Virus record (IMG/VR): IMGVR_UViG_3300046318_000295
Span: 1-30,680 of that record
Origin: a virus
Direction: 5' to 3' (one strand)
Length of the DNA stretch: 30,680 bases
The position numbers and the translations under genes were made by a program. The notes beneath the pieces are model-generated. The model did not search any database and was not told the origin of the DNA. It saw nothing but the letters and a program-made list of their open reading frames with translations. Shown in pieces: positions 4,340 to 19,879 of this stretch (the first letter of the stretch is position 1; each line of letters opens with the position of its first letter).

Positions 4340-4536
4340 GAAATGCCACCCATTCCCAGAACTTTACGGATCTGATTGATTGCTTCAATGCGATTCAAAT
4401 TAGCTTCAGCCATGTAAGCAAGAATTGCGTCATCCCACTTATCCCAAACATCAGCGTGCAAAGCGAAATCTCTGTTGCACATCCACCAGTCTTTGTAAGC
4501 GTTAGTTGCCGCAATGAATAGTTCAGCCTGAGTCAT
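4336..4536 (-). CDS. Hypothetical helical protein (cassette B, gene 4)
   Basis: A 66-residue mostly helical protein starting MTQAELFIAATNAYKDWW and ending VLGMGGIS, rich in Trp and Asp (DVWDKWDDAILAYM). It is the last of four genes that follow the hairpin leader at 5047-5099. Its start is formed by the shared junction GGTGCATAATG, coupling it to the gene upstream. No family was recognised. Confidence 0.65.
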   Translation of the reverse strand: MTQAELFIAATNAYKDWWMCNRDFALHADVWDKWDDAILAYMAEANLNRIEAINQIRKVLGMGGIS

Positions 4537-4739
4537 TATGCACCTACCAATTCAACTTTGATGTTGCCATGAAGATAATTGAAAACATTTTCTTGAGATT
4601 CCTGATTGAAGAATGAAATCGCAAAGATTGTGGAATCTTCCTTGATTGAGTGAATCGCAATGATGTCCAGGATTGACCCATTTGTGTCCCAGATTGAATC
4701 TCCTGCAACAAGCTCACGAATAAATTTAGTTGCAGACAT
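4536..4739 (-). CDS. Hypothetical small beta-rich protein (cassette B, gene 3)
   Basis: A 67-residue protein. After a short helix (FIRELVAGDSIWD) it is mainly beta: GSILDIIAIHSI, TIFAISFF, and a last strand ending KVELVGA. The pattern suggests a small SH3-like barrel. It is entered through a GGTGCATAATG junction and leaves through another, which encodes its C-terminal GA. The function is unknown. Confidence 0.65.
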   Translation of the reverse strand: MSATKFIRELVAGDSIWDTNGSILDIIAIHSIKEDSTIFAISFFNQESQENVFNYLHGNIKVELVGA

Positions 4740-4840
4740 TATGCACCAACCTTGTAATCAGGATTTGGCTTTAGAACAATGTTGCCTGCCAAAGTGTAAA
4801 TGTAAATAAATCTGTCAGTGGTATTGATCTGCTCGCCCAT
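4739..4840 (-). CDS. Microprotein of 33 residues (cassette B, gene 2)
   Basis: A 33-residue protein, MGEQINTTDRFIYIYTLAGN followed by a short polar tail ending DYKVGA. It is supported less by its length than by context: the ATG arises from a GGTGCATAATG junction with the gene upstream, the stop forms an identical junction with the gene downstream, and the frame fills the gap exactly. Its C-terminal six residues DYKVGA resemble the YSKVGA end of the gene upstream. The function is unknown. Confidence 0.6.
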   Translation of the reverse strand: MGEQINTTDRFIYIYTLAGNIVLKPNPDYKVGA

Positions 4841-5046
4841 TATGCACCAACCTTGCTGTAAGTCATAGCGATCTCAAAAGATGTATGAACATCTGCAGGG
4901 AAATCCACTAGGTCATCATTGTCATCAATGCAAGTGATCTGGTAGTTATCTCCACCAACCCAAGTGATTGCATCCACCTGATAAAGTCTGCCATTCAAGT
5001 GCTTGAAGATATCTAGTCTTTGAAGCTCGTAAGTTGCTTTCTTCAT
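4840..5046 (-). CDS. Hypothetical small beta-rich protein (cassette B, gene 1)
   Basis: A 68-residue protein starting MKKATYELQRLDIFKH, then beta-rich (GRLYQVDAITWVGGDNY, QITCIDDND) and ending MTYSKVGA. The frame is open 50 codons further upstream, but the chosen ATG follows directly on the AGGACAAAAGGACAAA segment shared with the 10591 gene, and the upstream extension would be encoded by promoter and leader sequence. It is first in a four-gene cassette linked by GGTGCATAATG junctions. The function is unknown. Confidence 0.7.
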   Translation of the reverse strand: MKKATYELQRLDIFKHLNGRLYQVDAITWVGGDNYQITCIDDNDDLVDFPADVHTSFEIAMTYSKVGA

Positions 5047-5099
5047 TTCTTTGTCCTTTTGTCCTATAAGGCCTTGTGCCTTATGTATGTAAACTAGCC
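5047..5099 (-). promoter_or_regulatory. Promoter and 5'-hairpin leader B
   Basis: On the minus strand: GGC plus the -10-like box TAGTTT (5096-5091), six bases, predicted +1 A at 5084, then a perfect 7-bp hairpin ATAAGGC/GCCTTAT (5084-5078 with 5072-5066) around the loop ACAAG, followed by AGGACAAAAGGACAAA and the ATG at 5046. The same layout occurs before the gene at 10591: same length from GGC-TANNNT to AGGACAAAAGGAC, loop containing ACAAG, tandem GGACAAA segment. The leader would be 38 nt long and its stem would begin at the first nucleotide. No convincing -35 box was seen. Confidence 0.6.
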
Positions 5100-5192: not shown

Positions 5193-5624
5193 TCAAGCAA
5201 AATGGCTGACAGTTACTGCCACGCCAGATTGCCGCACAGCATACTTCTTGCTGATCTCAAGCCTTACAACAAGGGAATCATCAGCCCAGACTGGCTTCAT
5301 GCCATCCAGGAGTCCCCGAGCAAGCTTATCCAAGTCAGGCGGCGTAATCGGATAATCCCTTTTCACAGTCTTCGGACGAGTCAAATAAAAGACTGCTTCA
5401 ACTTTGACAGCCTGATCAAACTTAGAGTCATCTCCAGAATCCTTCATGCCCTGAATCACAGCATCATTGACTGCTTTACGCCAAGCAGGAAGCTTCGGAG
5501 AAGATTCAATTATTAACGGAATGTTATTCCCAGCCGCTGTCCTTCTAGATCCGACATACTTCTTAGATCCTTGTGGAGCAGGATCAACTCCGAAGACTGT
5601 GAAGCTAAAACTATTTCTTGCCAT
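5193..5624 (-). CDS. rusA: RusA-like Holliday junction resolvase
   Basis: A 143-residue endonuclease of the RusA family, which cleaves four-way junctions as a dimer. The N-terminus has the usual start strand and PAPQGSKK (residues 15-22). The catalytic acidic cluster is visible as PDLDK (96-100) and WADDSLVV (113-120), with a GLLDGM helix between them. Length and order match the family. In phage replication it would resolve branched intermediates made by the exonuclease/annealing system before packaging. The ATG at 5624 lies inside a possible short upstream reading frame, and a hairpin at 5653-5690 separates it from ssb, so it may need its own promoter. Confidence 0.88.
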   Translation of the reverse strand: MARNSFSFTVFGVDPAPQGSKKYVGSRRTAAGNNIPLIIESSPKLPAWRKAVNDAVIQGMKDSGDDSKFDQAVKVEAVFYLTRPKTVKRDYPITPPDLDKLARGLLDGMKPVWADDSLVVRLEISKKYAVRQSGVAVTVSHFA

Positions 5625-5757
5625 AATAATTCACCACAATAACAAACCAACAGAAAACCCCTGCAAACCCATTCAAGGCTTGCAAGGGTTGAACTGTGAA
5701 ACAAGAGTTAACAATAAATAGCAGACCAAAAAGAAAACCTGCTATCCACGAACCCAT
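5611..5757 (-). CDS. Possible hydrophobic microprotein (doubtful)
   Basis: A 48-codon frame starting two bases after the SSB stop and overlapping the RusA start by 14 bases. The product would have two hydrophobic stretches (WIAGFLFGLLFIVNS, and FAGVFCWFVIVV). Against it: there is no Shine-Dalgarno sequence before the ATG, and its middle coincides with a 14-bp hairpin plus T-run (5653-5690) that looks like an intrinsic terminator. It may be an accident of T-rich sequence. Confidence 0.3.
   Translation of the reverse strand: MGSWIAGFLFGLLFIVNSCFTVQPLQALNGFAGVFCWFVIVVNYYGKK
5653..5690 (-). terminator. Intrinsic terminator candidate after ssb
   Basis: On the minus strand the arm AACCCTTGCAAGCC pairs with GGGTTTGCAGGGGTT (14 pairs, two of them G-T wobbles) across a short loop, followed by TTTTCTG. 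It would end or attenuate transcription between ssb and rusA. The T-run is short and the hairpin also lies in a possible reading frame. Confidence 0.5.
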
Positions 5758-5760
5758 AAT

Positions 5761-6084
5761 TTAGAAGGGTGCGTTAGCAACAATAGATTCTAAAACTGGT
5801 GGAACAACTGCTGGAACATCAATTTGTGCATTGTTGATATCCAACTTGACTTTTCTTCCAGGCTTACCAGTCTTATCTTCAAAGTCTTCAATCTTTGCTG
5901 AAAGCTGCCCAAAAACAACAACATCTGCATCAACTGGCAAATTATGTGAAACAGCAAACCAAACTGTCCAAGTCCTTGTGTAATCTTCCCCAGTAGCCGA
6001 CTTGTAGCTTTCAACTAGAGAAAGTCCCTGATTGCTTGCACCAAAAACTTTTGAGACTTTACCTGCAACTTTTACAACTGCCAT
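5761..6084 (-). CDS. ssb: Single-stranded DNA-binding protein
   Basis: A 107-residue OB-fold-like protein: GKVSKVFGASNQGLSLVE, then YTRTWTVWFAVSHN (strands 2-3 with the Trp/Phe pattern typical of SSB), then ADVVVFGQLSAKIEDFEDK and a VKLDINNAQI strand. The body is followed by a short linker and the ending APF, like the SSB C-terminal tip that binds partner proteins, though the acidic residues before it are missing. It is shorter than bacterial SSB (about 150-180). It lies with dnaB, the winged-helix protein and rusA, as expected for coating replication and recombination intermediates. Confidence 0.72.
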   Translation of the reverse strand: MAVVKVAGKVSKVFGASNQGLSLVESYKSATGEDYTRTWTVWFAVSHNLPVDADVVVFGQLSAKIEDFEDKTGKPGRKVKLDINNAQIDVPAVVPPVLESIVANAPF

Positions 6085-8333: not shown

Positions 8334-9311
8334 TTACTTGTAAATTGCCGCTAAAACATCTTCATCAATAAGAAGGCGTAAAGCCATCTCTGCTTGCTGT
8401 GGAACAACTCCATTGCCCAAAGCTTTCAACTGCTCAACTCGCTTCAATCCGATTTCAGGATCACAAACCCAACCTTCAGGTAATCCCATAAGCCATTCCA
8501 CAAAGTCTGCAGAAAGCCTGTGGCCATCATCTTTACCATCTGGCTTAGTTGGCAAAGGTGCAGATCTGTCAATGACTGCTTCCCAACGCCTGATTGCAGG
8601 TTCAAACTTACCCCAAGAAACTGCTTCATTCACTACTTCTTCCCGAAGATTTCTGTAGCCGCCTGGACTTCGCAATTTCAATTCAGCAATCTGTTCAGGA
8701 GTTTTGATCTCTCTATGCTCCATGGTATTTAGAGTCGGCAACAATTTCATTTGAGAATTCAACAAGATATCTCTAGCCTGATTGCTCAACCAGACTTGCC
8801 CAGTCTTAGATTTAGTTTCACTGCTTTGAAGCGAAGGAGCTTTAGAGCCTTCACTAGCAACTGGAGTCATCAACAATTCCATTCGGACTGCCACGCCTAA
8901 GCTTGCTCCAGGCATCCCCTTAGTTTTGCCATCCAAATAATCTTGTCGCCTGCCCAAATAATCTTCAATCGGCTCGTCATGATTCCTGATATGAGCAACT
9001 GCAGGAGTCGGCAAAGTAACTAAATCCTTGACTTGATCCCTAAGCATCACATAGTGGCCTTTAGCGATTTTGACTTCGGCAGATACTGCTCCACCTTGAC
9101 CTTCAACTGCAATTGGGGAACGCAATAATGAAAATTCTGAATCTTTGATGAGCTGCTCCTGCATCTGAAGCCCGAACACCTGTCCATTTCGCATCATACC
9201 CGATATCGGCCAGCGACCCGAGAACGGCCTGAATTGCTGTGAAAACAGGTTCGCTTCCCCAACTGTCCAAATCTTCTTGACTGTATTCCATTCCGTTATC
9301 TGCTTGAGCAC
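8334..9311 (-). CDS. Cytosine-5 DNA methyltransferase, C-terminal part
   Basis: This frame carries the target-recognition region and last motifs of a C5 methyltransferase: LVTLPTPAVAHIRN and MELLMTPVASEG (proline-rich repeats typical of the variable region in phage enzymes), then HRLSADFVEWLMGLPEGW (motif IX) and QLKALGNGVVPQQA (motif X). It lacks motifs I-VIII, which lie in the +1-offset frame at 9103-9672. The frame is open to a GTG at 9311, but the first 60 or so codons overlap the N-terminal part and look unlike a protein, so the coding part probably begins near 9114. The two pieces would make one enzyme after a +1 shift at or near a C4 run at 9118-9115. Confidence 0.7.
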   Translation of the reverse strand: MLKQITEWNTVKKIWTVGEANLFSQQFRPFSGRWPISGMMRNGQVFGLQMQEQLIKDSEFSLLRSPIAVEGQGGAVSAEVKIAKGHYVMLRDQVKDLVTLPTPAVAHIRNHDEPIEDYLGRRQDYLDGKTKGMPGASLGVAVRMELLMTPVASEGSKAPSLQSSETKSKTGQVWLSNQARDILLNSQMKLLPTLNTMEHREIKTPEQIAELKLRSPGGYRNLREEVVNEAVSWGKFEPAIRRWEAVIDRSAPLPTKPDGKDDGHRLSADFVEWLMGLPEGWVCDPEIGLKRVEQLKALGNGVVPQQAEMALRLLIDEDVLAAIYK

Positions 9312-9672
9312 TTAGCAAACCCCTTACATTTTCTATAACAACCAACTTAGGTTGTAGTTCTTGAATAGCTCTGGCGAATTGAAGCCATAGCCCTGACCTT
9401 GTTCCTTCTTGAAGCCCTGCACGCTTCCCTGCAAGCGATAAATCTTGGCAAGGAAATCCACCAGTCAAAACATCTATTGGCTCAACTTGAGTGAAATCCA
9501 CTTCAGCGACATCCCGATAATTTGGGATTCCTGGAAAATGCTTTTCAAGGATTGCCGAAGGTGCTTTATCCCATTTACAGTGCCAAACAATTTCTGAATC
9601 CAAGACATTTAGCACTGCAAGATCCAGACCACCATAACCAGAGAAAAGACTGCCCACTTTCAATTTAGGCAT
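9103..9672 (-). CDS. Cytosine-5 DNA methyltransferase, N-terminal part
   Basis: A 189-residue frame with motif I SLFSGYGGLDLA (8-19), motif IV GGFPCQDLS with catalytic Cys75, motif VI ENVRG (114-118) and motif VIII AAHQRFRIFI (173-182). It stops right after motif VIII, where a whole enzyme would continue into the recognition domain; that continuation is in the other frame (8334-9311). The enzyme would transfer a methyl group from SAM to C5 of cytosine, protecting phage DNA from restriction. The ATG at 9672 is preferred over an in-frame TTG two codons upstream. The frameshift may be a true disruption, programmed, or a sequence error in the C4 run. Confidence 0.82.
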   Translation of the reverse strand: MPKLKVGSLFSGYGGLDLAVLNVLDSEIVWHCKWDKAPSAILEKHFPGIPNYRDVAEVDFTQVEPIDVLTGGFPCQDLSLAGKRAGLQEGTRSGLWLQFARAIQELQPKLVVIENVRGLLSAQADNGMEYSQEDLDSWGSEPVFTAIQAVLGSLADIGYDAKWTGVRASDAGAAHQRFRIFIIAFPNCS

Positions 9673-9958
9673 CTGCAAGGATTTCTTTCAACTTAGATTT
9701 TGCCGCCTTCAAATCTGCAGTGAACTGCCATTCAAGCGTTTCAACATCAAAGTCCTTATCCACTTTTCTAATACTGAAAAGCTTTTCACTCTGATTGAAA
9801 TTGTCTTCTTGGCTGATAAAGAAATAATCTGTCCCAACCTGCTTCAGGGTTGCCCAGTAAATCTTTGAACCCCAAAAGGCTAAGGCATCCTTGCTAAACC
9901 AGTGTCCAGTCTTAGCCCTGATAAGCAACCATTCATTGCAATCTTTGCTGTAAGTCAT
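9665..9958 (-). CDS. Hypothetical protein (cassette A, gene 4)
   Basis: A 97-residue protein beginning MTYSKDCNEWLLIRAKTG, aromatic-rich and probably beta in the first half (ALAFWGSKIYWATLK, DYFFISQED), ending in a Lys-rich helix (LKAAKSKLKEILADA). It is last of the four genes following leader A and is entered through GGTGCATAATG. The frame is open further upstream, but that extension would overlap the previous gene. It overlaps the methyltransferase start. No family was recognised. Confidence 0.65.
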   Translation of the reverse strand: MTYSKDCNEWLLIRAKTGHWFSKDALAFWGSKIYWATLKQVGTDYFFISQEDNFNQSEKLFSIRKVDKDFDVETLEWQFTADLKAAKSKLKEILADA

Positions 9959-10140
9959 TATGCACCTGCTTCCTGATTGAGATCTACGCCTAAGTCTGCG
10001 ACCCAAGTTCGCAACGACTGCTCTGACCAAAATGATTTGATGTGATAGCCACGCAACTGCAAGGCGTAAGTTGTTCTTTTACCTGATTTGATTTGCATAC
10101 TCCAGCCTTGGCCGAGTTGCTTAGTCTGAATAAAGATCAT
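9958..10140 (-). CDS. Hypothetical small protein (cassette A, gene 3)
   Basis: A 60-residue protein starting MIFIQTKQLGQGWSMQIK, with strands YALQLRGYHIKSFW and a short helix SLRTWVADLG, ending NQEAGA. A longer frame starting at 10224 is rejected because the ATG at 10140 comes from the GGTGCGTAATG junction and the extension overlaps the previous gene. The function is unknown. Confidence 0.65.
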   Translation of the reverse strand: MIFIQTKQLGQGWSMQIKSGKRTTYALQLRGYHIKSFWSEQSLRTWVADLGVDLNQEAGA

Positions 10141-10409
10141 TACGCACCGACCTTTTCCAGATTTTCCGACTGCAGCTTTTCTAAGTTTGCAATTTGTCTT
10201 CTTAGCGAATTGATTAACCACCACTGGCGATCTTCAGCGTAATAACCTGATCCAGTTTCTCTTTCAAGATCAGACTTCATGCAAGCGATCCAACTATCCA
10301 ACGTTGCAATCTCTACTTCATGCTTGCCTGCAGTTTGTGGCATCCACTCAATATCTGTTTCATGGCCATACCATCTAGCAATGTTTGGAAGGATTTTAAC
10401 TGTGATCAT
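10140..10409 (-). CDS. Hypothetical protein (cassette A, gene 2)
   Basis: An 89-residue protein: an N-terminal MITVKILPNIARWYGHE part, then a mainly helical section with many Trp (TLDSWIACMKSDLERE, RQWWLINSLRRQIANL) and an ending LEKVGA. The C-terminal helix could form a short coiled coil. It is joined to both neighbours by GGTGCGTAATG. No family was recognised. Confidence 0.65.
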   Translation of the reverse strand: MITVKILPNIARWYGHETDIEWMPQTAGKHEVEIATLDSWIACMKSDLERETGSGYYAEDRQWWLINSLRRQIANLEKLQSENLEKVGA

Positions 10410-10591
10410 TACGCACCCATAATTTCTGCGTATTCGCTTTTAACAACTCTTTTAGCAATTCTTACAATTGTTGCAGTTGAAGATTCTGACCAGTCAAGAA
10501 GTGCTTCGTCTTCAATGAAGTTTTGAATCTTCAGTGCTTCTTCCAAAGAAATGCTTAGATGTTCAGCAATCAGTCTTGTATACATGTTCAT
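10409..10591 (-). CDS. Hypothetical small helical protein (cassette A, gene 1)
   Basis: A 60-residue helical, acidic protein starting MNMYTRLIAEHLSISLEEAL and containing FIEDEALLDWSESSTATIVR; it ends EYAEIMGA. ATG 10591 is six bases after an AGGAC element; a second ATG two codons later is possible. It is the first gene after leader A. Similar short proteins occur in actinophages without known function. Confidence 0.68.
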   Translation of the reverse strand: MNMYTRLIAEHLSISLEEALKIQNFIEDEALLDWSESSTATIVRIAKRVVKSEYAEIMGA

Positions 10592-10643
10592 TTTTTGTCC
10601 TTTTGTCCTTCAGGGCTTGTTCCCTGATACATACAATGTAGCC
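10592..10643 (-). promoter_or_regulatory. Promoter and 5'-hairpin leader A
   Basis: On the minus strand: GGC plus TACATT (10640-10635), six bases, predicted +1 A at 10628, then a perfect 6-bp hairpin TCAGGG/CCCTGA (10627-10622 with 10615-10610) around the loop AACAAG, then AGGACAAAAGGACAAA and ATG 10591. The layout matches leader B (5047-5099) base for base in spacing while the stem sequence differs. Two tandem TATTTGGC copies lie just upstream (about 10642-10659). The stem may protect the transcript's 5' end or control access to the ribosome-binding segment. Confidence 0.6.
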
Positions 10644-10713
10644 AAATAACGCCAAATAGACGAATGTAAATGCATTTTTTTCAAAAGATTTTTAGCAGGA
10701 AAAGCCTTGAATT

Positions 10714-10881
10714 CTAGGGGTTTTTAGGCATATTTGCGAGCTTTACGCTTTGCTCCTGAAGCCTAGTAAGGATTTTGGCTCTAAGAATGACCTGATTCTG
10801 CCCTTCCAAGATTAGGGCTAATTCAGTCAATTCAGCGATATGGCTGATAAGTATTGCCTGTTCAATTTCTAGAGATTCCAT
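10714..10881 (-). CDS. Hypothetical helical microprotein
   Basis: A 55-residue helical protein, MESLEIEQAILISHIAELTE then LALILEGQNQVILRAKI and LQEQSVKLA, probably one or two amphipathic helices or a short coiled coil. The ATG at 10881 overlaps the 3' end of the annealing-protein gene by 20 bases; a longer frame to 10965 would lie almost wholly inside that gene. It is the last gene before leader A. The function is unknown. Confidence 0.6.
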   Translation of the reverse strand: MESLEIEQAILISHIAELTELALILEGQNQVILRAKILTRLQEQSVKLANMPKNP

Positions 10882-11365
10882 CTGCCTTACCTTTGATTGC
10901 TTCCAGAATACTTGACGGAACTTTATTCTGCTTCGCTTCATTGTAAAGGGAACGCAAGCCTTCAAGATCCGAAATGTTCTCTAACGCCGCCATCCAATTC
11001 TTTGAAGGAGAAACTCCCCGATTGACCTTGTTCATTTCTTCCCGAGTAACTCTCTTATCCCCAGAATAATTTGCGTTAGCCAGACACCTACCGATTGCTG
11101 AAGTTTCTGCGTTCTCCAGGGCTGAAGTTTTGTTGGCCATCCCTGCACCATCAATTTCAAAAGCCAAACCAGTCGCTTTCGGCAATCCCCGAGCCTGATC
11201 TTCAGAAGTCAAATAAACCCAAGCTTGCACAACCCAAGTCAAGATTGCTCTGTCATGTGCTTGAGTTATGTTCTTAGTAACTATTCTTCCATCTGGAAAA
11301 TCTCTGTAGAAGCGTGCAATTCTTTCGGCAACAGTTTCATAATCTGCAGGGTTAAAGTGAGCCAT
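10862..11365 (-). CDS. Putative ssDNA-annealing recombinase (ERF/Rad52-like)
   Basis: A 167-residue protein with YETVAERIARFYRDFPDGRI (9-28), a beta section WVVQAWVYLTSEDQARGLPK and the motif KTSALENAETSAIGRCLANA (79-98), which resembles the ETSAIGRALA core of phage ERF/Sak-type annealing proteins. The basic segment SGDKRVTREEMNK follows. Its gene lies two genes after the YqaJ exonuclease, the usual exonuclease-annealing pairing of lambda-type recombination. Together they would process and anneal DNA ends during replication or genome circularisation. The motif resemblance is recalled, not computed, so the family call is moderate. Confidence 0.6.
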   Translation of the reverse strand: MAHFNPADYETVAERIARFYRDFPDGRIVTKNITQAHDRAILTWVVQAWVYLTSEDQARGLPKATGLAFEIDGAGMANKTSALENAETSAIGRCLANANYSGDKRVTREEMNKVNRGVSPSKNWMAALENISDLEGLRSLYNEAKQNKVPSSILEAIKGKADGISRN

Positions 11366-12460: not shown

Positions 12461-12763
12461 ATGACCACTGACAAAGCAACTCAAGAACGCTTGACTGTAA
12501 ATCTCAACGAAGCCATCCTGGACAATGGTGGCGTTGAATGTGAGCAAGTGCCAGAAATTTTCTTCCCCGAAGACTTCAGAGCTAAAAGCAAAGGGCAAGA
12601 TCTGGAAATGGCTAAATTGGCAGAACAGACTGCAAGGGAAATTTGCCTAAGATGCCCAGTAATGGCGAAGTGCCTTCAAGTGGGAATGTTTGAAGATTAT
12701 GGCATTTGGGGTGGATCCACAGCCGAGCAAAGAAAACGGATTAGAAAGCAAGCCGAGTTCTAG
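12461..12763 (+). CDS. WhiB-family transcriptional regulator
   Basis: A 100-residue WhiB-like protein and the only rightward gene. The four iron-sulfur ligands are Cys27, Cys62, Cys65 and Cys71 (ICLRCPVMAKC), with the diagnostic GIWGG turn at 81-85 and a basic C-terminal helix (AEQRKRIRKQ) that contacts DNA. FF-P-E near 34-37 is also typical. WhiB proteins bind a 4Fe-4S cluster and the region 4 of the primary sigma factor, redirecting host RNA polymerase; phage versions can repress host whiB genes. It lies between early and late blocks and diverges from the exonuclease gene, so a role in early/late switching is plausible. It marks the host as actinobacterial. Confidence 0.93.
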   Translation: MTTDKATQERLTVNLNEAILDNGGVECEQVPEIFFPEDFRAKSKGQDLEMAKLAEQTAREICLRCPVMAKCLQVGMFEDYGIWGGSTAEQRKRIRKQAEF

Positions 12764-18872: not shown

Positions 18873-19274
18873 TTATCTTGCGAAAACTTGAACCGAAAAC
18901 TCGGCACTCAAATAGTCTATACCGTTCACAGTAATAGCCCCATACGCTGAAAGTTCTGCCAGAAAGACTTCATAAGCGTTTCCACCTAAAGTGCGATCTG
19001 ATTCAACAGCCGCCTTGACTGACCCAGTTCCAGGAGCAACCCAAATGTCCAAAGTGTTCTGTGCAGTCCTTTCAGAAACTCTGCCAACGATCACAGTTAC
19101 TTTGAAAGTGTATTCAGACATACTCTGATTATTTTGCCTATTGTAAGCAACCTTGGTCAGACCAATCATTGCCACAGGTGGATTCACCACATCTGGCAGA
19201 GTTTCAAGAACTCGCAATCCAGAAAGAGTCTTCAGGTTATTTGCTAATCCTGTCCGAAGATCACTAATTGACAT
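18873..19274 (-). CDS. Tail terminator-like protein
   Basis: A 133-residue protein with an N-terminal helix (ISDLRTGLANNLKTLSGLRV), then LPDVVNPPVAMIGLTKVAYN and beta strands (YTFKVTVIVGRVSERTAQ, GIDYLSAEFSVQV). Order and fold pattern resemble lambda gpU-type tail terminators that cap the tube, as does its position just before the tail tube gene. A head-closure role is the alternative. Its start overlaps the connector stop through a GGTGCGTAATG junction. Confidence 0.62.
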   Translation of the reverse strand: MSISDLRTGLANNLKTLSGLRVLETLPDVVNPPVAMIGLTKVAYNRQNNQSMSEYTFKVTVIVGRVSERTAQNTLDIWVAPGTGSVKAAVESDRTLGGNAYEVFLAELSAYGAITVNGIDYLSAEFSVQVFAR

Positions 19275-19879
19275 TACGCACCAGTTCTAAGCAGACGGAA
19301 CGGATTGATAAGTTGAGCCACATCACCATCAATGCTTGAACCAACTCGCATGATACCTAAGTCAGAAACACCAGCAACTCCTAGTGGAGATTCCAAACGC
19401 TTGAACAATCTTGAAGCCTGAATAATAGTCGCAAATTTGATTGAATCTGGCACGCTTGCCCAACCGAACTGACCAGTAACTTTTACTAAAGCTATGTCAG
19501 CCCAAACAGGAAACAAATAGTTATCCGTTGCAGTAATCGCATTGATTGGATAGTAAGCTCCATTCGCCCACCTATTGGCAGGCAATAACTGATAGTCGCC
19601 TGACTCCCAAGTGGTATCAAAGATTAGTGGATCAGTGCTTGCAGTCTTGATCTCACTAATTGATTGAGCATCATCAATCCAGCACATGAAACCATCATTC
19701 GCTTGAAAATAGCGAACTTCATTTGCACTAGTTGAATAAAAGTATCTGTTGCAATATTGATCAATCATTCTTGAAGCAGCATTTACGCTGTTCTCAATCA
19801 AAGCGTCATCAATAGTGTCTGTAATTCTTAGAGCCGCTTTCACATCTGCAAGCGTGCAATACCCATTTGTTATCGCCAA
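19274..19879 (-). CDS. Head-tail connector (gp6-like)
   Basis: A 201-residue protein. The start MAITNGYCTLADVKAALRIT and ASRMIDQYCNRYFYS match the helical N-terminus of gp6/gp15-like adaptor proteins, which form a ring under the portal. The middle is beta (SISEIKTAS, DYQLLPANRWANG, FGWASVPDSIKFA), and helix KFATIIQASRLFKRLESPLG closes the fold. It ends INPFRLLRTGA. It is the first tail-joining gene after the sugar cassette, with AGGAG before its ATG. Confidence 0.8.
   Translation of the reverse strand: MAITNGYCTLADVKAALRITDTIDDALIENSVNAASRMIDQYCNRYFYSTSANEVRYFQANDGFMCWIDDAQSISEIKTASTDPLIFDTTWESGDYQLLPANRWANGAYYPINAITATDNYLFPVWADIALVKVTGQFGWASVPDSIKFATIIQASRLFKRLESPLGVAGVSDLGIMRVGSSIDGDVAQLINPFRLLRTGA

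Follow-up and report, generated by a model that had tools for sequence, protein, structure and literature searches.

A promoter-anchored hairpin leader with a conserved tail at two small-gene cassettes of freshwater actinophages

Short repeats at gene starts are known from several groups of actinophages. In cluster K mycobacteriophages, the SAS/ESAS elements combine a conserved ribosome-site repeat with an inverted repeat (PMC3203893); they were later read as SigA-like promoters (PMC11373665), and the inverted repeat overlaps the promoter, with pairing in RNA found unsupported by the authors (Pope et al. 2011). Cluster EF Microbacterium phages carry GGGAAAGGACCCC over the start, and the accessible part of their description (PMC7302621) does not present these start-associated sequences as RNA hairpins. 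Inverted repeats shortly upstream of small-gene starts also occur in cluster EG (18 bp, as in Hyperion) and cluster O (17 bp), a position that they share with the leader described here.

The leader of phage T7 gene 10 consists of a 5'-terminal stem-loop, an A-rich stretch and a Shine-Dalgarno sequence, an example of phage use of this arrangement. The E. coli ompA-type stabilisers (Emory, Bouvet, Belasco 1992) likewise have their stem-loop at the 5' end itself or no more than one or two nucleotides away, with an unstructured A-rich stretch and a Shine-Dalgarno sequence behind it, and stabilisation by such structures is recorded for E. coli and other bacteria (Emory 1992; accessible part of PMC7509114). 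In the stabilising Shine-Dalgarno leaders of Bacillus cryIIIA and phage SP82 (PMC7509114), a ribosome-site-like purine motif lies near the 5' end and its role in translation is dispensable. In the actinobacterium Mycolicibacterium smegmatis, 5' UTR hairpins failed to stabilise a reporter, and a genome-wide correlation was likewise not seen (PMC11728522). Here we describe a leader that is a start-associated phage element of a new variety, probably working like a 5'-terminal stem-loop leader, with SAS/ESAS as the nearest published kind.

The stretch of DNA analysed, called the window, is a virus record of 30,680 bases with nearly all genes on the minus strand. Two leaders, A and B, both lie on the minus strand and read TACATT-GTATGT-ATCAGGGAACAAGCCCTGA-A-GGACAAAAGGACAAAAA-ATG and TAGTTT-ACATAC-ATAAGGCACAAGGCCTTAT-A-GGACAAAAGGACAAAGAA-ATG, respectively. 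Their parts are as follows.

10659..10664, minus strand: -35 region of leader A (positions -36..-31), weak against the family consensus TTGCNT
10635..10640, minus strand: -10 hexamer TACATT of leader A, exactly 6 nt 5' of the stem foot
10610..10628, minus strand: leader A predicted +1 (10628) and hairpin TCAGGG/CCCTGA, loop AACAAG, from folding and family covariation
10602..10608, minus strand: first GGACAAA motif of leader A, a poor Shine-Dalgarno sequence, from family conservation
10597..10602, minus strand: Shine-Dalgarno sequence AAGGAC of leader A, from anti-Shine-Dalgarno duplex energy across the family
5091..5096, minus strand: -10 hexamer TAGTTT of leader B, on the same layout as leader A
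5066..5084, minus strand: leader B predicted +1 (5084) and hairpin ATAAGGC/GCCTTAT starting at +1, loop ACAAG, from folding and family covariation
5058..5064, minus strand: first GGACAAA motif of leader B, from family conservation
5053..5058, minus strand: Shine-Dalgarno sequence AAGGAC of leader B, from anti-Shine-Dalgarno duplex energy across the family

An earlier note on this DNA had aligned the two leaders without gaps over 29 bases between GGCTA and AGGACAAAAGGAC, and had described perfect stems that differ in sequence, a common tail and a pairing register shifted by one base. All of these are present in the window, the shift being real (the arms of leader A occupy +2..+7 and +14..+19); the GGC ahead of the -10, which the note had included, is not a feature of the related leaders. 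The sequence GGACAAAAGGAC occurs at two places only in the window, leaders A and B, and a perfect stem at +1 or +2 follows just 3 of the 646 TANNNT sites on both strands, namely the two leaders and one site within a coding region. Folding energies as low as that of leader A were reached by none of 2000 shuffles, and 0.25% of shuffles equalled leader B.

Scans of viral contigs for the terminase and DnaB yielded 160 related loci, in dozens of which the leader is visible, and 53 distinct leaders from related IMG/VR phage contigs are all of one plan: a weak TTGCNT-like -35, a TANNNT -10, 6 nt, a purine, a stem-loop, GGACAAA, AAGGA and ATG. The pattern is found in the relatives far beyond chance; many of the contigs are fragmentary, and related phages are non-independent samples. 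Two rows of the 53-leader listing (L104 and L094) were set in a wrong register automatically; inspection by eye shows that they conform to the plan. At the -35, T is present in 50 of 53 leaders, with the consensus TTGCNT; the -10 ends in T in all 53 and has A in second place in 51. The stem measures 6-8 bp and the A-rich loop 4-6 nt. GGACAAA starts 0-5 nt after the hairpin (51/53, with CGACAAA in 2/53), AAGGA follows 7-13 nt beyond it and about 8 nt ahead of the ATG, and the 5' UTR is 37-45 nt long. The distance from the -10 to the purine at the stem foot, the predicted +1, is exactly 6 nt in the family, in support of the earlier proposal that the hairpin is tied to a predicted transcription start. 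This purine stays A or G also in leaders whose first pair is lost, as would be expected if transcription began there.

The covariance model was seeded with seven ungapped leaders, a choice made because the 3' arms are put in the wrong place when MAFFT is used plainly. The model search of related phages, which had been suggested together with the original observation, found both window copies again along with many others, and every match under an E of about 0.1 was on the sense strand. Two-sided changes were seen at seven of the eight stem pairs, a result that none of 500 shuffles matched and that no slid register came near. The alignment fitted to the model has 95.7% of its cells paired, a figure that includes some weak hits and is biased towards the model's own structure, and because of that bias two further tests of pairing were run. 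When 3' arms were swapped between leaders with different arms, a few rows being off register, the mean folding energy went from -7.5 kcal/mol with their own arms to -3.0 kcal/mol. Among the 35 unique hairpins, counted from +2 inward, the non-Watson-Crick cells comprised 21 G-U, 3 A-C and 3 others, of which at least one A-C and one other cell trace to the misregistered L104 row. Transitions in a DNA palindrome produce G-T and A-C equally often, so the excess of G-U over A-C argues for selection on RNA; judged from these substitutions, the leader pairing is selected in RNA, not in DNA.

A close relative illustrates how far the arms may change. Leader A of L086 has ATAAGGC/GCCTTAT and the window's leader A has TCAGGG/CCCTGA, next to a neighbouring protein that is 97.6% identical. 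Arm swaps, covariation and G-U bias in the relatives agree with the earlier suggestion that structure rather than sequence is kept. That suggestion had been made vulnerable to uncompensated broken stems in relatives; it survives, about one leader (L152) being substantially weakened.

Across the family, the duplex with the anti-Shine-Dalgarno sequence averages -6.1 kcal/mol for the second motif and a weak -3.4 kcal/mol for the first GGACAAA; of the two GGAC copies, the second alone makes a good Shine-Dalgarno site. The tail is predicted to be about 82% unpaired (48 different starts in their real contexts). Breaking the hairpin in silico slightly lowered the accessibility of the ribosome site, from 0.80 to 0.76, and insulation of this site by the hairpin is not visible in the fold model. 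Because the tail belonged to the search model, its conservation is best gauged by a count anchored on RusA: sought with no hairpin required, the tail stands behind RusA in 57 of 58 non-redundant loci. The near-invariance of the first GGACAAA is unexplained by the ribosome and so leaves room for a binding factor; conservation beyond plain ribosome-site needs suggests some binding partner.

The leader is confined to two places, behind RusA and behind an annealing-type gene. At the latter, the tail follows the phrog_11717-like gene and its small neighbour in 16 of 43 loci, and many loci lacking the leader have TTAGATACTTNNTATG at the following gene, suggestive of a leaderless start or mRNA. In L122, L109, L125 and L137, for example, which are without leader A, the next gene begins directly behind TTAGATACTTNNT. 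The surroundings of the two leaders in the window are these.

10714..11365, minus strand: fixed neighbours upstream of leader A (phrog_11717-like ORF and small ORF)
10862-11365, minus strand: phrog_11717-like ORF, putative annealing protein
10714-10965, minus strand: small ORF beside the phrog_11717-like ORF
10409..10591, minus strand: first ORF of cassette A, 60 aa, no assigned function (no Pfam or PHROG match)
10407..10417, minus strand: cassette junction GGTGCGTAATG, a stop/start overlap
10138-10148, 9956-9966, 4838-4848, 4737-4747 and 4534-4544, minus strand: further cassette junctions
9103-9678 and 8334-9311, minus strand: DNA cytosine methylase-like frame, two overlapping ORFs in different frames, recognised by eye
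5656-5690, minus strand: terminator-like hairpin of 15 pairs, between ORFs 5761-6084 and 5193-5624 (RusA)
5193..5624, minus strand: RusA-like resolvase (PF05866, phrog_140), fixed neighbour upstream of leader B
4840..5046, minus strand: first ORF of cassette B, 68 aa, no assigned function (homologues in relatives)
12461-12763, plus strand: WhiB-like regulator, encoded against the direction of almost all other genes

The split in the methylase-like frame (8334-9678) is a frameshift, either programmed or from assembly, and the hairpin at 5656-5690 lies close to where the region transcribed from leader A ends.

The first ORFs behind the leader belong to 33 unrelated families (69 distinct sequences), six of which are found behind both leader A and leader B. 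Homologues of the first ORF of cassette A stand first in cassette B in L098, L115, L135 and L191, while the first ORF of cassette B has a homologue following leader A in L148 and one following leader B in each of L139 and L086. When viral contigs were scanned directly for relatives of the 60-aa ORF, none turned up, its homologues surfacing later beside leaders, and Pfam and PHROGs matched none of the four window cassette ORFs scanned. The sequence Gly-Ala-stop ends 44 of 67 complete first ORFs, and in both cassettes the small ORFs meet at a common junction, GGTGC[A/G]TAATG. In the relatives the overlapping junction GGNGCNTAATG lies at most 2.5 kb downstream of the leader in 72 of 78 sense cases and in no antisense case. 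The variety of ORF families together with the common unit ends points to a constant front end serving interchangeable cargo, and the leader is indeed reserved for small-ORF cassettes, in the window phage, as the earlier note had proposed, and in its relatives. The junction may mark where units are exchanged or may couple translation; one model in the literature explains phage mosaicism by short conserved sequences at boundaries (PMC3233612). The same GGTGC[A/G]TAATG junction is also present at 19272-19282.

The large terminase is 56% identical to that of Pontimonas phage phiPsal1 and has a 50% relative in a Microbacteriaceae metagenome bin. Together with the WhiB gene, these relatives point to an actinobacterial host, likely but not proven, and probably one of the Microbacteriaceae. 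All seven near-complete genomes searched (28-34 kb, window included) hold one or two copies of the leader. In phiPsal1, the nearest named phage, the model found no match and its intergenic gaps, when read, held no clear equivalent. A degenerate hairpin pattern run on 2.9 million viral contigs returned 39 stretches, all in the window's clade except one (L175), apparently a chance match. Derivation of the leader from the host was rejected, as 300 Microbacteriaceae genomes gave one weak partial match at chance level. Rfam gave no match at gathering score in the window and, in eight relatives, weak chance-level matches elsewhere with none on the leader, and a known RNA family was rejected on this ground; no tRNA was found.

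The leader resembles SAS/ESAS in being a short conserved repeat at the ribosome site, used for numerous non-structural genes and preceded by an inverted repeat and a SigA-like promoter, the last judged by sequence only (consensus TTGCNT-18-TANNNT). The SAS consensus, GGGATAGGAGCCC or GGGAAAGGACCCC, is however absent from it: the tail reads GGACAAA(N)AAGGA and has only AAAGGAC in common, which is also what it shares with the cluster EF consensus GGGAAAGGACCCC. Cluster K genomes carry 11-19 SAS copies as against one or two leaders here and, in contrast to cluster K, the leader's repeat is transcribed and covaries, with a strong G-U bias. Membership of SAS/ESAS as defined was rejected, the consensus being missing and the repeat supporting pairing in RNA. 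In AnnaSerena (L194, MH271292), about four of nine EF sites, read by eye, have a hairpin from about +1 to +3 after TANNNT that abuts GGGAAAGGACCCC (record positions about 35699, 36666, 47183 and 49171); a shared architecture with the leader is a lead. The cluster EG half-site ATCAACC resembles ATCAGCC, whereas the EG repeats GATCAACCNNGGTTGATC are palindromes that do not vary, have 2 bp at their centre and lack the tail. They look like DNA palindromes, and the leader covariance model R1 did not find them (best E 1.4). Relative to ompA-type stabilisers, the leader has pairing backed by covariation across a phage clade and a second conserved motif, GGACAAA; stabilisation by the leader would be an extrapolation, and its host lineage is actinobacterial, where M. 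smegmatis showed no effect. It shares with cryIIIA and SP82 the purine motif near the 5' end, but its first motif pairs poorly with the anti-Shine-Dalgarno sequence and sits behind a 5'-terminal hairpin.

The comparison of leaders thus establishes a covarying, promoter-anchored hairpin that is transcribed, with a conserved tail predicted to be unstructured. Our main reading, at a probability of roughly one half, is that the leader, composed of a stem-loop and a ribosome-loading tail, serves two hypervariable small-gene cassettes as a context-independent front end for expression. Transcription would start at the stem-foot purine, and the mRNA would open with a 5'-terminal stem-loop, behind which an A-rich tail without structure carries GGACAAA and AAGGA. 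The stem-loop, unable to pair with the ribosome site, would leave 5'-end-dependent RNases (RNase E/J, pyrophosphohydrolase) without an unpaired 5' end to act on, the open tail would load 30S subunits, and any ORF placed behind the leader would presumably be expressed well. That the stem protects the mRNA 5' end is suggested by analogy and held with moderate confidence, since the M. smegmatis test, the best actinobacterial one, was negative.

A different role, which we regard as possible but doubtful, would make the hairpin and GGACAAA a site for a phage or host RNA-binding protein or for RNA polymerase, acting as antiterminator or translational regulator on both cassettes together. It would account for a first GGACAAA that is almost invariant in spite of being a poor Shine-Dalgarno sequence, for the A-rich, restricted loop and closing pairs, and for the presence of the element at exactly two sites per genome. 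The loop nevertheless varies in sequence and length (4-6 nt), stems are wholly different even in close relatives (ATAAGGC against TCAGGG), and neither a candidate protein nor an Rfam match was found. The 15-bp terminator-like hairpin (5690-5656) in the region transcribed from A also speaks for this role, and the lack of a boxA-like element against it. The rigid 6-nt spacing between the -10 and the stem foot would also suit a hairpin that acts in initial transcription (promoter escape or pausing) or in setting the start site, and has no further function once the mRNA is complete; this is unlikely, as the conserved tail would be left unaccounted for and sigma-70 promoters in general are not known to carry a hairpin consensus of this kind. 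We consider it very improbable that a phage repressor or activator binds the inverted repeat as a DNA operator across the start site, a role that has been put forward for start-associated inverted repeats in other actinophages. The position at +1 would fit, and the invariant GATCAACCNNGGTTGATC repeats of EG phages (accessible part of PMC7302621) are partly similar to ATCAGCC-N4-GGTTGAT, but selection on DNA does not explain 21 G-U against 3 A-C cells, the inter-arm spacer varies between 4 and 6 nt, and the arms differ in sequence and covary. A DNA operator palindrome is largely refuted by these features, with 35 different hairpins.

The expression front end could, more speculatively, belong to a plug-in system in which ORF units ended by GGTGC[A/G]TAATG are set behind a fixed front end. 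Counter-host genes would be swapped between the two sites by means of the junctions and the phage's own annealing protein, exonuclease and RusA, and a dedicated factor would read the hairpin and GGACAAA and time both cassettes; we offer this tentatively. As a phage RNA structure, the leader has strong support from covariation and lies outside every Rfam family. In an abundant, almost uncultured group of freshwater actinophages it flags the hypervariable small-gene sites, and it may serve as a direct handle for finding variable genes, which are candidates for a part in host takeover or counter-defence. For the start-associated repeats of actinophages, long without an explanation, it raises a testable question at the RNA level, and at least some Microbacterium cluster EF sites look like the leader when read as RNA.
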